From positions 1-16,217 of the forward strand of contig CALDBH010000072.1 in assembly GCA_937938065.1 (NCBI GenBank): 16,217 nucleotides of DNA, written 5' to 3'. Shown here piece by piece: positions 2,062 through 9,486 of the stretch. The DNA comes from an uncultured Sulfurovum sp. (GTDB lineage Bacteria; Campylobacterota; Campylobacteria; Campylobacterales; Sulfurovaceae). Under the pieces are notes generated by a model, which saw nothing but the letters and a program-made list of their open reading frames with translations, did no database searches and had not been told where the DNA came from. Every line of letters begins with the position of its first letter. Positions within the stretch are counted from its first letter, which is position 1. The translations under genes were made by a program, and so were the position numbers.

Positions 2062-2093
2062 ATCATCAGTACGAATAAAGGGCCTTTGATGAT
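2062..2093 (+). promoter_or_regulatory. Inverted repeat that could sequester the start codon of the ABC membrane gene
   Basis: ATCATCA at 2062-2068 is the exact reverse complement of TGATGAT at 2087-2093, which contains the ATG start at 2089. In mRNA this 7-bp stem would cover the start codon and leave the ribosome binding site (AAAGGG, 2077-2082) in the 18-nt loop. A second perfect 6-bp hairpin (TTGACT / AGTCAA, 2042-2057) lies just upstream. Translational control is inferred; only the repeats are observed. Confidence 0.35.
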
Positions 2094-3048
2094 ATCAAAT
2101 AAGATTTTTATTGATTTTGTAAAGAAGATAATCCAAGAAGACCGAAAAAATATTCTTCATCTAGTTTATTATTCTATCATTGATGCGATCTTGGTATTGT
2201 CTATCCCTCTGGCATCAGCTATTGTTATTAATAGTGTATTGTCACATGCTTCACTCTCTCTTATCGTTGTAGGTACCATTCTTCTTATTTTATTTGTATT
2301 TATCACCATATTGCAACTACTTAAAGAATACATCATTGAAAAGTTTCAACAAAAAGTGTTTCTTATGAGAGGAATAGAGATTTCCCAAAAAGCATTAAAT
2401 CTACATCAGGGGGAGAGCAGTGATGAGACTAAACATAGAAAATTGATGAACTATTTTTTCGATATTACCTCTATTCAGAAGTTCTTTCCCATTCTTGTAC
2501 TTGATGGACTTGGCGTGGTCATTAAAATCCTGGTAAGTCTTCTTTTACTGCTTATATTTGATCCGATCCTATTTACTGCAGGTGTGATTTTATTCTCATT
2601 ATATATTATTATATTGTTTGCTCTTGGGCGTAATGCGGGAGTCACTGCATTAGCGCGTTCAGATGCGAAACATAATACAATCTATTTTTTACAAAATATC
2701 AATGAAGAAAAAGGCTCAAGAGAAGAGACTCTTACTAAGTATAACACTTCCTTGGCCAAGTATGTGAAGGCTCGGCAGAATTTATTTAGGATCATTATCA
2801 GACAATTGGGCTTTACATTTTTTGCAGAAGGGTTTATTTTTACTATGTTCTTACTCATAGGAGGGTATCTTGTGATCAATGGCAGCCTGCCTTTGGGAGA
2901 GTTTGTTGCAGCAGAAATTATTGTTACTTCTATTACCTATGCGCTTAAAGGATTTGCTAAACAGCTTGATTATATCTATGATACGGTTGAGGGATTGTAT
3001 AAAGTAAACAAGTTATCAGTGGAACTGAAGGATAAGCAAGATGGATAG
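2089..3048 (+). CDS. ABC-exporter transmembrane domain protein lacking an ATPase domain
   Basis: This 319-residue inner-membrane protein has six predicted membrane segments (about 26-50, 56-79, 133-157, 158-180, 242-262, 268-288) in the pattern of the type I exporter membrane domain. A long cytoplasmic loop lies at 80-132 and another at 181-241. It ends with YDTVEGLYKVNKLS, close to where the linker to the nucleotide-binding domain starts in full-length exporters (about 570-720 residues). No Walker A, LSGGQ or Walker B motif is present. The next gene starts inside its last codons, so this is not a simple frameshifted NBD. ATG 2089 is chosen over TTG 2086 because AAAGGG (2077-2082) is 6 bases before it. 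With the HlyD and TolC genes downstream it resembles a type I secretion system; the substrate and the ATPase are unknown. Confidence 0.8.
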   Translation: MISNKIFIDFVKKIIQEDRKNILHLVYYSIIDAILVLSIPLASAIVINSVLSHASLSLIVVGTILLILFVFITILQLLKEYIIEKFQQKVFLMRGIEISQKALNLHQGESSDETKHRKLMNYFFDITSIQKFFPILVLDGLGVVIKILVSLLLLLIFDPILFTAGVILFSLYIIILFALGRNAGVTALARSDAKHNTIYFLQNINEEKGSREETLTKYNTSLAKYVKARQNLFRIIIRQLGFTFFAEGFIFTMFLLIGGYLVINGSLPLGEFVAAEIIVTSITYALKGFAKQLDYIYDTVEGLYKVNKLSVELKDKQDG

Positions 3049-4312
3049 ATTTGAATTTGATTCTTTGAAACTTGTTCAGACAGCCCCTTTTGTAAATCGA
3101 GTAGGACGTGTTATATTTGTACTTATCCTTGTGTTTGTAGCGATCCTCTTTTTACCCTGGAGACAGACAGTTGAGGGAGAGGGTAGAGTGATTGCGTATG
3201 ATCCTACCCAAAGAGTACAATCCATCTCCGCACCTATAGACGGTTTCATCGAGACTTTTTTTGTTTCAGAAAATGAACATGTGCAAAAGGGTGCAAAACT
3301 GTTTGATATGATTGATCCGGATAAAGAGTATAAAACACGTGTCTATAAAATGAGAGAGGACTTCAAGCAGCAGCAACAGAACATCGAAGATAAACTGCTT
3401 ATTTTAGAGCAAAAAAGAAGCAGTCTCCTTGCACAGAAAGAAATACGTCTTGAGCTATATGACAAACGCTATACACAAGCCGAAGAAGTACTGAAATCTA
3501 AACAGATCAAATATAGTGCAGACAAGAAAAACTATGAAGTGATCTCAAATCAGTTTAATAGGATAAAAGAGCTCTATCTTCAGAAAATAGAATCCAAAAA
3601 GCATTTTGAAAAAATGGAAAATGAGTATATTTTTGCTAAAACTAAGCTCGATAAAATAGAGATAGATATTGAGGTGGAAAAACGCAACATGTTGATCATA
3701 CAGAAAGAGAAAGAGCACTTTTTAGAGGAGATTGGAAATAAGATAAGAGCACTTGAGACGAACAGGTTATCTGAAGAAACACATTTAAACAGTTTGAAAA
3801 GAGAATTGGAAAAACATCAGACCGAAGTTTCAAGATATGAGACATCATCTGTTGTTTCACAAAAAGATGGCTCAGTCATGCGAATCTTAAAAAATGATAA
3901 AAATACCTATATAAAAAAAGGTGAACCTATTGCACTCTTTTCCCCCGATGTAACGACAAGCGCACTTTTGTTAAAGGTATCTGATTTCAATATGCCGCTT
4001 ATCAAAGAGGGACTCTCTGTAAGGATACGTTTTCATGGCTGGCCTGCATTGCACCTTCCGGGCTGGCCGACAATAAGGTTTGGTACGTTTGGAGGGATTA
4101 TAAAAAGAGTGGACCCTGTCTTGCATGAAAAGGGCTTTTACTATGCCTATGTTGTTGAAGACCCAAATGAACCATGGCCCTCACAAGAAGAGTTAAGAGT
4201 AGGAACCAATGCAACGGTATGGGCTGCTTTGTCAGTTGTACCTATCTGGTATGAACTGTGGCGTTTGATGAATGCCTTCCCTGCAAATATGGTCACTTCT
4301 GGGAAAAAGTAA
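3041..4312 (+). CDS. HlyD-family periplasmic adaptor (membrane fusion protein)
   Basis: This 423-residue protein would link an inner-membrane transporter to an outer-membrane channel. A short cytoplasmic N-terminus is followed by one membrane helix (about 21-38). The first lipoyl half (57-92) contains SAPIDGFIETFFV and VQKGAKLF. A long charged coiled coil runs from about 100 to 268, then comes the second lipoyl half (about 272-302, KDGSVM and IKKGEPIALF) and a beta-barrel region ending near 400 (VGTNATVWAA). The region VEGEGRVIAYDP after the membrane helix and the tryptophan-rich FHGWPALHLPGWP stretch resemble HlyD proteins paired with ABC exporters, as I recall them. The gene overlaps the upstream gene by 8 bases, with AAGGA at 3028-3032 as binding site, so the two are probably translationally coupled. 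No RND pump gene is nearby. Confidence 0.88.
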   Translation: MDRFEFDSLKLVQTAPFVNRVGRVIFVLILVFVAILFLPWRQTVEGEGRVIAYDPTQRVQSISAPIDGFIETFFVSENEHVQKGAKLFDMIDPDKEYKTRVYKMREDFKQQQQNIEDKLLILEQKRSSLLAQKEIRLELYDKRYTQAEEVLKSKQIKYSADKKNYEVISNQFNRIKELYLQKIESKKHFEKMENEYIFAKTKLDKIEIDIEVEKRNMLIIQKEKEHFLEEIGNKIRALETNRLSEETHLNSLKRELEKHQTEVSRYETSSVVSQKDGSVMRILKNDKNTYIKKGEPIALFSPDVTTSALLLKVSDFNMPLIKEGLSVRIRFHGWPALHLPGWPTIRFGTFGGIIKRVDPVLHEKGFYYAYVVEDPNEPWPSQEELRVGTNATVWAALSVVPIWYELWRLMNAFPANMVTSGKK

Positions 4313-5676
4313 TGATAAACATACTACCAAGATACTACCTATTTATTTTGCTTGTTTCACCTTATATTTTAGGTAAAGAGATCTTTACAGTTGAACATGT
4401 TGAACAGCATTTGACAGAGAAAAATCCCTATATATACAGTGCCATAGGACGGCAATATATTGATGAGGCGCGCATAGAAACAGCGCAGGGAGATCTTGAT
4501 ACAAGACTCTTTGGTGCTTATGATAAAAAAGATTACCCTGTAAGTACGGGTGAATTTTCTGATGTTTTTCTCAGTAAACCAACAGAAAATGGTACAGAGT
4601 TTATTGCCGGATACAGAAAAGCAGAAGGGATCCAGGAGTATAACAATATCAAGACTGGAAATGATGGAGAATTTCGTATTGGCGTCAAAGTGCCTGTTTT
4701 TTCATTATTGAATGAAATGAATGAGAGAAAATACAAAATTGATTCTGCGAAGATAAATGCGACAAAGTCGACATTTCATGCGCAAAATAATTTAAGAAAT
4801 CTCTATGCGCAGATCATGCTCTCCTATTATAAGCTTCTCTATTATCATGAATTGGTCAAGCTTGAAAAAAGATTATATGTAAAAGCAAAAAAGAGGAATG
4901 GTTTCATTGAACAAAAGGTCAATGCAGGAGACCTGGCACCTATTGAATTACTCGAATCAGATCAGCAGATAATCAGTCGTGAACAAAGGGTTCTTAGAAC
5001 AAAACGAAGTTATACACAGGCATTGCAGTCATTTTTGAAATATATGAATATTCCCCAAAATGATTTTGATCAAAAGTATGCATTGCCGACTTTAAAAATG
5101 TTAAAGAAAGAAAAGATCATTTTGGAAAGTGCAATGCGTAAAGCCCTGGAGAGTAGACAGGATATTAAGGCATTGGAGTATCAAAGAACAAAGTTGGACC
5201 TAGATACTGCCTATAACAGTTTAGATAAATATCCTAAGTTGAACCTTTTTGCCTATGGTGTGCATGATATGGAGTATGGTGAAGGTGTAAAAGTTGGATT
5301 ACAGTTTGAAATGCCTTTGGAAAGACGAAAGTATGAAGGGAAGAAGGTAGAGATAAAAAAGAGTGTTATCCAACTTGAAGAGGAGAAGAATCGATTGATC
5401 CTGGAATTGAAAGCGAATCTAAGTAATTTGATCTATTCATTGGATACTATCAATCAAAACATAGAGCTAGGGCGTAAAGAAACGAAAATAGTTGAGTCAC
5501 TGGAAAAAATGGAAAACAAAAAGTATGAAGTTGGCTCAAGTGATCTATTCCAGGTTAATCAACGTGAAATACTTACATTGGAAGTGAAAAGAAAACAGCT
5601 GGAATACTATCTTAATGCACTGATGGTCCAGCAAGAGATTAAAAGAGAGACAGGAGAGCTTATTCGTACTTTTTAA
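4312..5676 (+). CDS. TolC-family outer-membrane efflux protein
   Basis: This 454-residue protein would form the outer-membrane channel of the operon. Residues 1-20 (MINILPRYYLFILLVSPYIL) look like a secretion signal. The rest is two alpha-helical repeat halves typical of outer membrane efflux proteins, with long charged helices at about 140-245 and 340-450 and strand-like segments such as FRIGVKVPVF (121-130) and VKVGLQFEMPL (327-337) entering each coiled region. The ATG shares its A with the stop of the HlyD gene (TAATG), so translation is probably coupled. An in-frame GTG at 4258 would extend it into the HlyD gene and put charged residues before the signal, so I reject it. The last 17 bases overlap the 3' end of the convergent small gene, leaving no room for a separate terminator. 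Confidence 0.87.
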   Translation: MINILPRYYLFILLVSPYILGKEIFTVEHVEQHLTEKNPYIYSAIGRQYIDEARIETAQGDLDTRLFGAYDKKDYPVSTGEFSDVFLSKPTENGTEFIAGYRKAEGIQEYNNIKTGNDGEFRIGVKVPVFSLLNEMNERKYKIDSAKINATKSTFHAQNNLRNLYAQIMLSYYKLLYYHELVKLEKRLYVKAKKRNGFIEQKVNAGDLAPIELLESDQQIISREQRVLRTKRSYTQALQSFLKYMNIPQNDFDQKYALPTLKMLKKEKIILESAMRKALESRQDIKALEYQRTKLDLDTAYNSLDKYPKLNLFAYGVHDMEYGEGVKVGLQFEMPLERRKYEGKKVEIKKSVIQLEEEKNRLILELKANLSNLIYSLDTINQNIELGRKETKIVESLEKMENKKYEVGSSDLFQVNQREILTLEVKRKQLEYYLNALMVQQEIKRETGELIRTF

Positions 5677-8835: not shown

Positions 8836-9486
8836 ATGTCCCAATCTTTATTGGAAGCGAAAAATATTTCTCACAGTTTTGATACTCTTTTATTTCATGA
8901 TGTCAATTTTTCTTTAAAACCATCTCAGAGTGCAGCTATCATTGGCCGAAGCGGTTGTGGAAAGTCTACACTTTTACATATATTTTCAACTTTTATTAAA
9001 CCTGATGAAGGCAGTGTAACACTTTTAGGAAAAGACCTTTACAGCCTTGATGATAAGACCATTGAGGCACTACGCCGTTATGATATAGGGATCATATTTC
9101 AGTTTCATTACCTGTTTAAAGGTATGACAGCAATGGAAAATGTCGAAGTGGCCAGTATGTTAAGTGCTGAGAAGATCGATGATACCATACTTGAAAAGTT
9201 AGAGATAAAAGAACTCATGAAACAAAAGATAGGTGAACTCTCAGGTGGACAGCAACAGCGTGTCTCTATAGCCAGGGTTTTAAGCAAAAACCCTCGTATC
9301 ATCTTTGCAGATGAACCTACAGGAAACTTAGACAAAGAGACTGCAGAGCTTGTGATGGATGTCCTGATGGACTACATTAAAGAGACAGGTGCCGGACTCT
9401 TACTAGTGACCCATGATGAGACTATGGAAGCACGTTGTGATGTTGCTTATAAGATCGAAGATAAAATACTGAAGGAGAAAGTATGA
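8836..9486 (+). CDS. ABC transporter ATP-binding protein, LolD/MacB-like
   Basis: This stand-alone 216-residue cytoplasmic ATPase has Walker A GRSGCGKST (37-45), Q-loop IIFQFHYLF (Q89), signature LSGGQQQR (135-142), Walker B RIIFADEP (154-161, E160), D-loop GNLD (163-166) and switch histidine H193. QFHYLFKGMTAMENV and the size are typical of the LolD/FtsE/MacB group, whose membrane partners are FtsX-like permeases. No such permease is in the window. The order rpsB-tsf-ATPase matches what I recall in Campylobacter jejuni, so this is probably an ancestral arrangement. AAAGG at 8825-8829 precedes the ATG by 6 bases. The stop overlaps the start of the next small gene (ATGA). Transport of lipoprotein or lipid is inferred only from similarity to LolD. 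Confidence 0.88.
   Translation: MSQSLLEAKNISHSFDTLLFHDVNFSLKPSQSAAIIGRSGCGKSTLLHIFSTFIKPDEGSVTLLGKDLYSLDDKTIEALRRYDIGIIFQFHYLFKGMTAMENVEVASMLSAEKIDDTILEKLEIKELMKQKIGELSGGQQQRVSIARVLSKNPRIIFADEPTGNLDKETAELVMDVLMDYIKETGAGLLLVTHDETMEARCDVAYKIEDKILKEKV

Follow-up and report, generated by a model that had tools for sequence, protein, structure and literature searches.

Operon structure and conservation

We analysed a stretch of 16,217 nucleotides from an uncultured Sulfurovum sp. (contig CALDBH010000072.1 of assembly GCA_937938065.1; hereafter the window), which carries a three-gene operon laid out like a type I secretion system (T1SS). Its order is an ATP-binding cassette (ABC) exporter transmembrane domain (TMD), an HlyD-type adaptor and a TolC-type channel, and the ABC protein ends at the boundary between the TMD and the nucleotide-binding domain (NBD). 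The genes, and the TMD positions discussed below (TM5 and TM6 being transmembrane helices), are as follows:

2089..3048, + strand: NBD-less type IV ABC-exporter membrane domain, 319 amino acids (aa), inner-membrane component
2395..2439, + strand: coupling-helix-1 position, TMD residues 103-117, the internal segment that varies most in the NBD-less clade
2695..2730, + strand: coupling-helix-2 position, TMD residues 203-214, hypervariable, with 6 residues fewer than NBD-bearing relatives have
2827..2829, + strand: codon of E247, a glutamate in the membrane region of TM5 that marks the NBD-less clade
2899..2901, + strand: codon of E271, a TM6 glutamate that marks the NBD-less clade
2914..2916, + strand: codon of E276, a TM6 glutamate common to the whole family
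3041..4312, + strand: HlyD-type periplasmic adaptor, 423 aa, its start codon lying within the 3' end of the TMD gene
4312..5676, + strand: TolC-type outer-membrane channel, 454 aa from its ATG, matching PF02321 in two stretches (E 1.1e-21)

The open reading frame (ORF) of the adaptor matches TIGR01843 (E 1e-17) and HlyD_D23 (E 5.5e-7), both below their curated cut-offs, and HlyD_3 (E 2.4e-4) at its curated cut-off.

A scan of one genome per species found 13 relatives of the NBD-less TMD with ORFs of 318-329 aa, all of them in Campylobacterota (Sulfurovum, Sulfurimonas, Sulfuricurvum, Thiovulum and others). Whole-genome searches of two families recovered it in 18 of 175 and in 27 of 200 genomes, respectively, one of the latter finds being a 48-residue remnant. 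A class-wide genome sample was positive in 2 of 249 cases. The 45 genomes considered besides the window consist of the finds in the two families and a Thiovulum genome, giving 46 loci in all. HlyD directly follows the TMD in 45 of these, the exception being a contig end, and TolC follows HlyD in 43, with two misses at contig ends and one true absence (L010); the T1SS-type adjacency of inner-membrane ABC protein, HlyD and TolC is complete in 43/46. No NBD belongs to the operon at any of the 46 loci, and a motif search found an ABC NBD ORF at a distance of up to 8 kb in five of them, some flanks being limited by contig ends. The ratio of non-synonymous to synonymous substitution rates (dN/dS), calculated for 12 pairs, was 0.03-0.13 for the TMD gene, 0.04-0.11 for HlyD and 0.06-0.16 for TolC. 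A protein search returned 669 relatives of the NBD-less TMD, the best 120 of which are 311-326 aa long; this search scored only lengths of 0.55 to 1.75 times the query, which by design places full-length exporters outside it. Genome searches free of a length limit listed no frame longer than 364 aa.

The first-pass annotation of the window had described an NBD-less TMD-HlyD-TolC operon, and the TMD-only ORFs in the window and 45 genomes confirm that it is real. The conserved NBD-less form, with HlyD next to it in 45/46 loci, also speaks against an isolated sequencing error or deletion. The absence of an adjacent substrate or peptidase gene agrees with the wider set: within 4 kb, the search of the operon surroundings (distant substrates lay outside its scope) found no recurrent neighbour, the commonest family occurring in only 7/46 loci.

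At L008 and L094-L097 the operon lies near phosphate-related-looking genes, which we take to be pst-type genes near L008 and a permease and a response regulator downstream in L094-L097, and one porin family is found directly upstream in four loci of two genome families. Judging from these neighbours, the operon might respond to phosphate limitation. In genome G513 (L121) the operon has been lost: the flanks match those of L118 on both sides at 73-93% protein identity, and a 48-residue TMD remnant is left between them. We regard this pair as a loss event.

NBD-bearing relatives

A protein search of plasmid records found the same gene order in Bacteroidota (Riemerella, Persicobacter, Aureibacter) and Sphingomonadales; the 22 records with a TMD match include every one of the 20 that match HlyD. 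Six plasmid loci were read, five of which encode a full-length ABC protein of 550-724 aa that includes an NBD region. In a Sphingopyxis plasmid (L140) the ABC gene is interrupted at an IS3 element. By profile comparison these NBD-bearing relatives are homologous to the NBD-less TMDs (E 1.3e-42). Whether relatives carry a fused NBD had been raised by the first-pass annotation; they do, in a degenerate form. Walker A is the sole motif kept in the Riemerella NBD, the Persicobacter NBD reads GKN, LSTST and ND at its motifs, and in Aureibacter and both full-length sphingomonad NBDs Walker A is gone too.

Two protein searches, one with five of the relatives as queries and one with the Persicobacter protein, widened this sample; the best 120 of more than 6,000 matches were taken from each, with no sequence in common, and all motif counts below apply to these. 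Four intact T1SS proteins served as the alignment reference for scoring the motifs. Walker A survives in 114/120 proteins of the first set and 113/120 of the second (227/240 in total). SGG at the aligned signature place was found in none of either 120, and neither set has DE at the Walker B place, where the first mostly reads ED or KD and the second ND (112/120). The Q-loop and H-loop residues are largely substituted in both. As a control, 60 T1SS loci from Campylobacterota genomes, picked by similarity to an intact NBD profile, all keep the signature, and all have DE in the Walker B stretch (51/60 by a stricter pattern). The motif losses suggest that these Bacteroidota genes, annotated as ABC transporter ATP-binding proteins or bacteriocin exporters (240 proteins), do not encode working ATPases. 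According to our analysis, the NBD is absent in the Campylobacterota clade and, judged by its motifs, catalytically degenerate in the relatives seen, and the HlyD and TolC partners are kept.

L136 and the proteins of the second set (P0241-P0360) are mostly 706-765 aa long, with about 150 extra N-terminal residues, and the named ones are Cytophagales-like. T1SS exporters carry a C39-like domain where these extra residues sit.

Coupling-helix positions and membrane glutamates

The NBD-less alignment has 45 rows: the window and all but one (L113) of the 45 genomes. We take the coupling helices to lie where general exporter anatomy would place them. When alignment entropy was computed in 12-column windows, the top two internal windows of the NBD-less rows were the two coupling-helix positions, with 3.03 and 2.51 bits (mean 1.37). 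The ratio of entropy to the group mean at the first position is 2.15 in NBD-less rows, 1.31 in degenerate-NBD rows (n=33) and 1.08 in intact T1SS exporters used as controls (n=38), and at the second it is 1.71, 1.37 and 1.19, respectively; these ratios are a rough guide, since overall diversity is not the same in the three groups (means 1.37, 1.04 and 0.81). The stretch of the second intracellular domain (ICD2) is 37 residues long in 44/45 NBD-less rows (38 in one), compared with 43 in 36/36 degenerate-NBD rows and 42 in 38/38 controls. Model confidence is low at the first coupling-helix position. As far as the alignment tells, both positions are poorly constrained in the NBD-less clade.

The alignment also reveals two additional glutamates in the predicted membrane region of this clade. 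E247 is Glu in 41/45 genome rows (three Q, one X) and in all 120 listed NBD-less proteins, which are the closest of the 669 and partly the same as the genome rows. Outside the clade the column holds Lys in 33/33 and 119/120 Bacteroidota proteins (30 of the 33 rows being also among these 120), Tyr in 3/3 Sphingomonadales and Glu in 0/38 controls. E271 is Glu in 44/45 genome rows (one D) and 120/120 listed proteins; degenerate-NBD rows have Gln there (32/33 with one A, 120/120, and 3/3 Sphingomonadales), and another count of 120 degenerate-NBD proteins gave 114 Q and 6 M. E276 is Glu in all family rows (45/45, 120/120, 33/33, 120/120 and 3/3; 120/120 in another count of degenerate-NBD proteins) and in 0/38 controls. 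Further residues shared by the family are K131, K194 and Y297.

For structural placement an AlphaFold2 model built from a 72-row alignment was used, in place of a 14-row model (predicted local distance difference test, pLDDT, 72.5). The model retains the type IV exporter TMD fold and consists of a short helix (residues 2-17) followed by exporter helices only. Its helix limits would put E247 within TM5 and E276 some two turns into TM6.

Search for a partner ATPase

Of the 45 genomes with the operon, 18 were searched with an exporter-NBD profile built from six T1SS exporters (A2), and these 18 yielded no standalone exporter-type NBD. All matches of at least 178.9 bits lie in frames of 568-1006 aa, and the best match in a frame shorter than 350 aa reached 128.5 bits. 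A T1SS-type NBD above 260 bits is lacking in 9/18 genomes and present in 8/18, and in one (G586) it is cut at a contig edge. Given this score gap, no split-off exporter NBD was found in the 18 genomes, and half of them also gave no T1SS exporter that could be paired with it. This result covers NBDs of the exporter type, other NBD types lying outside it; PF00005 matched 26-32 NBDs per genome in the 13 genomes searched.

The nearest NBD within the window is a standalone LolD-like ORF of 216 aa at 8836-9486 (TIGR02211, E 6.4e-55, below the curated cut-off), 3.2 kb beyond the operon, and no connection to the TMD was seen. The ORFs in between are presumably rpsB and tsf.

Evolution of the family

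The TMD tree, in which the Bacteroidota are represented by every fourth of 120 proteins and three loci, has one branch per group (support 100/100 for NBD-less, 100/98 for Bacteroidota and 100/99 for Sphingomonadales proteins). It joined the NBD-less branch with Bacteroidota and the Sphingomonadales with the references, with flags for long branches and for the composition of the three sphingomonad rows. An alternative tree uniting Bacteroidota and Sphingomonadales scored slightly better (approximately unbiased test, p-AU 0.61). Both NBD-bearing groups are degenerate, and parsimony therefore favours an ancestor with an already decayed NBD. That decay preceded loss is an argument from parsimony and not a proof, and the groups may have decayed separately.

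Comparison with known systems

Type I secretion systems of the HlyB/HlyD/TolC, LssB and PrtD types differ from the present operon in two respects. Their NBD is catalytic, whereas it is missing in the NBD-less clade and degenerate in the relatives, and they have a dedicated substrate gene nearby (of the repeats-in-toxin, RTX, or double-glycine type), whereas no recurrent gene lies within 4 kb here.

A close parallel is SbmA/BacA. According to the available text of PMC13316013, these are proton-driven peptide importers that have a glutamate ladder and lack both NBD and coupling helices; their presumed ancestor is a full-length ABC exporter whose TMD shed its NBDs and coupling helices. Going by that portion of the source, the likeness takes in an ABC-exporter-like TMD without NBD and may extend to a reduced coupling-helix region and to conserved glutamates predicted to lie in the membrane. 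Unlike SbmA, which has eight membrane helices including TM0, the 319-aa TMD of the window has no predicted TM0; it is partnered with HlyD and TolC, and it presumably exports. None of the 72 NBD-less members matched the SbmA_BacA Pfam family at E 0.01 (three other Pfam families were matched), SbmA is absent among the 50 structural chains listed, and the NBD-less profile had no sequence match in the PDB at E 0.01.

The heterodimeric exporters TM287/288, TmrAB and TAP combine one degenerate with one catalytic site, as described in the available parts of PMC7756269 and PMC8277102. Degenerate NBD motifs are what they have in common with the present family. To the extent that those sources allow the comparison, the present relatives differ in that their operon has a single NBD, which has lost the signature as well as Walker B, and in the clade of the window the NBD is missing altogether.

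At E 0.01, 22 of the 72 NBD-less members matched PF13748 (ABC_membrane_3), a model of an ABC transmembrane region, with a lowest E of 5e-5. The window protein had no match at this threshold, and a six-frame scan of five operon-bearing genomes gave 0/5 at E 0.001. For this family, the accessible part of PMC9408558 gives no experimental structure.

In the open-access literature nothing was found on HlyD-TolC operons with a missing or dead NBD, subscription papers and preprints being outside the search. HlyD and TolC genes of Sulfurovum indicum are raised on elemental sulfur (PMC10045233, as far as its available text goes), and may or may not be those of the present operon. The operon of PMC10197871 was set aside, its authors taking it, in the portion available, for one of the resistance-nodulation-division (RND) type.

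Proposed mechanism and alternative explanations

We posit, with a probability of roughly 0.55, that the operon encodes a tripartite type I-like exporter whose inner-membrane part derives from an ABC exporter and would no longer be driven by its own ATP hydrolysis. The TMD would act as a homodimer, take up a cytoplasmic or inner-membrane substrate by alternating access and pass it to HlyD-TolC, and the proton gradient might power it through E247, E271 and E276, by analogy with SbmA/BacA. That it acts independently of ATP hydrolysis appears probable, and the proton-driven mode, suggested by this analogy, falls just short of an even chance. We consider this the best explanation because of the conservation of the operon and its low dN/dS, the lack of a standalone exporter NBD in 18 genomes, the degenerate NBDs of the relatives, the coupling-helix variability with the ICD2 deletion, the glutamates and the precedent of SbmA. 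Of the two options given in the first-pass annotation, an ATPase acting in trans or a membrane domain doing something other than ATP-driven export, the second is favoured.

Several observations weigh against this reading. Walker A is kept in 227/240 proteins, which implies that nucleotide still matters somehow in Bacteroidota and suggests that its binding is still under selection in these members (P0121-P0360). DE following hydrophobic residues occurs elsewhere in the C-terminal part in 4/120 proteins of the first set and 3/120 of the second. In 80/120 of the second set (P0241-P0360), SGG stands six residues upstream of the aligned signature place, where intact exporters read GERG, and may represent a shifted signature; the gap-free distance to the next helix sets it outside the signature place and favours the alignment. 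This SGG slightly lowers our confidence in action independent of ATP hydrolysis. Both searches started from degenerate queries, and the proteins taken were the best 120 of more than 6,000 in each, which leaves room for intact members. The columns for the coupling helices were chosen with the window ranking already known. The glutamates were placed by the helix limits of a medium-confidence model of a monomer, not a dimer, in which E271 and E276 are close to the end of TM6 that faces the periplasm. The ladder of SbmA, in contrast, is on the cytoplasmic side of its gate, and SbmA imports (PMC13316013, available text). Finally, the operon is patchy (18/175 and 27/200 genomes), and the tree does not settle in which order the events took place.

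The degenerate NBDs of Bacteroidota could instead be an ATP-binding switch without hydrolysis, with the NBD-less clade representing a separate, further loss with a mechanism of its own. The retention of Walker A while the other catalytic motifs are lost agrees with such a switch, and the data are compatible with a grouping of Bacteroidota and Sphingomonadales that excludes the NBD-less clade (p-AU 0.61). The proposal is rather unlikely, as Aureibacter and both full-length sphingomonad NBDs have no Walker A, and the shared E276, K131, K194 and Y297 point to one common peculiarity that arose before the split.

It is less likely still that the TMD is a non-pumping conduit or anchor, which holds HlyD-TolC or gates a passive pore while the push comes from a substrate gradient or from folding outside the cell. 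This would suit a motor that was lost while the channel was retained, and the lack of a recurrent substrate gene within 4 kb. The strong conservation of the polar TM5 and TM6 residues and of the exporter fold would, however, exceed what an anchor needs.

An ATPase in trans, i.e., a standalone NBD encoded elsewhere that docks on the TMD dimer and powers it, appears improbable. Split exporters do exist, among them YddA-type TMDs with the NBD in a separate operon (PMC13316013, in its available part), and the 26-32 NBDs per genome would offer candidates. Nevertheless, an orphan exporter-type NBD, which the first-pass annotation had suggested looking for, was not found in the 18 of 45 genomes searched (9 of the 18 being without a T1SS-type NBD above 260 bits), NBD ORFs within 8 kb occur in 5/46 loci and never within the operon, the docking positions vary most among internal segments and one of them is shortened, and in the nearest relatives that do have an NBD it is fused and degenerate. 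The lack of a standalone NBD in the genomes searched, the weak coupling-helix constraint and these fused NBDs tell against the trans option.

A decaying pseudogene or sequencing artefact, to which the patchy presence and the 48-residue remnant between conserved flanks in G513 might point, is refuted by the conservation of the NBD-less form at the same length, in the same order and with low dN/dS across genomes of two families.

Implications

ATP hydrolysis is the defining trait of ABC exporters, as an ABC engine is of type I secretion. What appears to be new here is a type I-like architecture with an ABC-derived engine that, to judge from its sequence, is not a working ATPase. We propose tentatively, and with somewhat less confidence than proton drive itself, that a large family spanning at least Bacteroidota, Sphingomonadales and Campylobacterota dropped ATP hydrolysis, kept its place beside HlyD and TolC and became a secondary-active, proton-driven type I engine, with the Campylobacterota as the end point at which the dead motor is gone and two further glutamates have been added. 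If true, primary transporters would have turned into secondary ones by a second path in addition to that of SbmA, and its stages would be kept in living bacteria: an NBD with Walker A only, an NBD without any motif, and no NBD. The operon would then offer a testable case for what powers export once ATP hydrolysis is gone.

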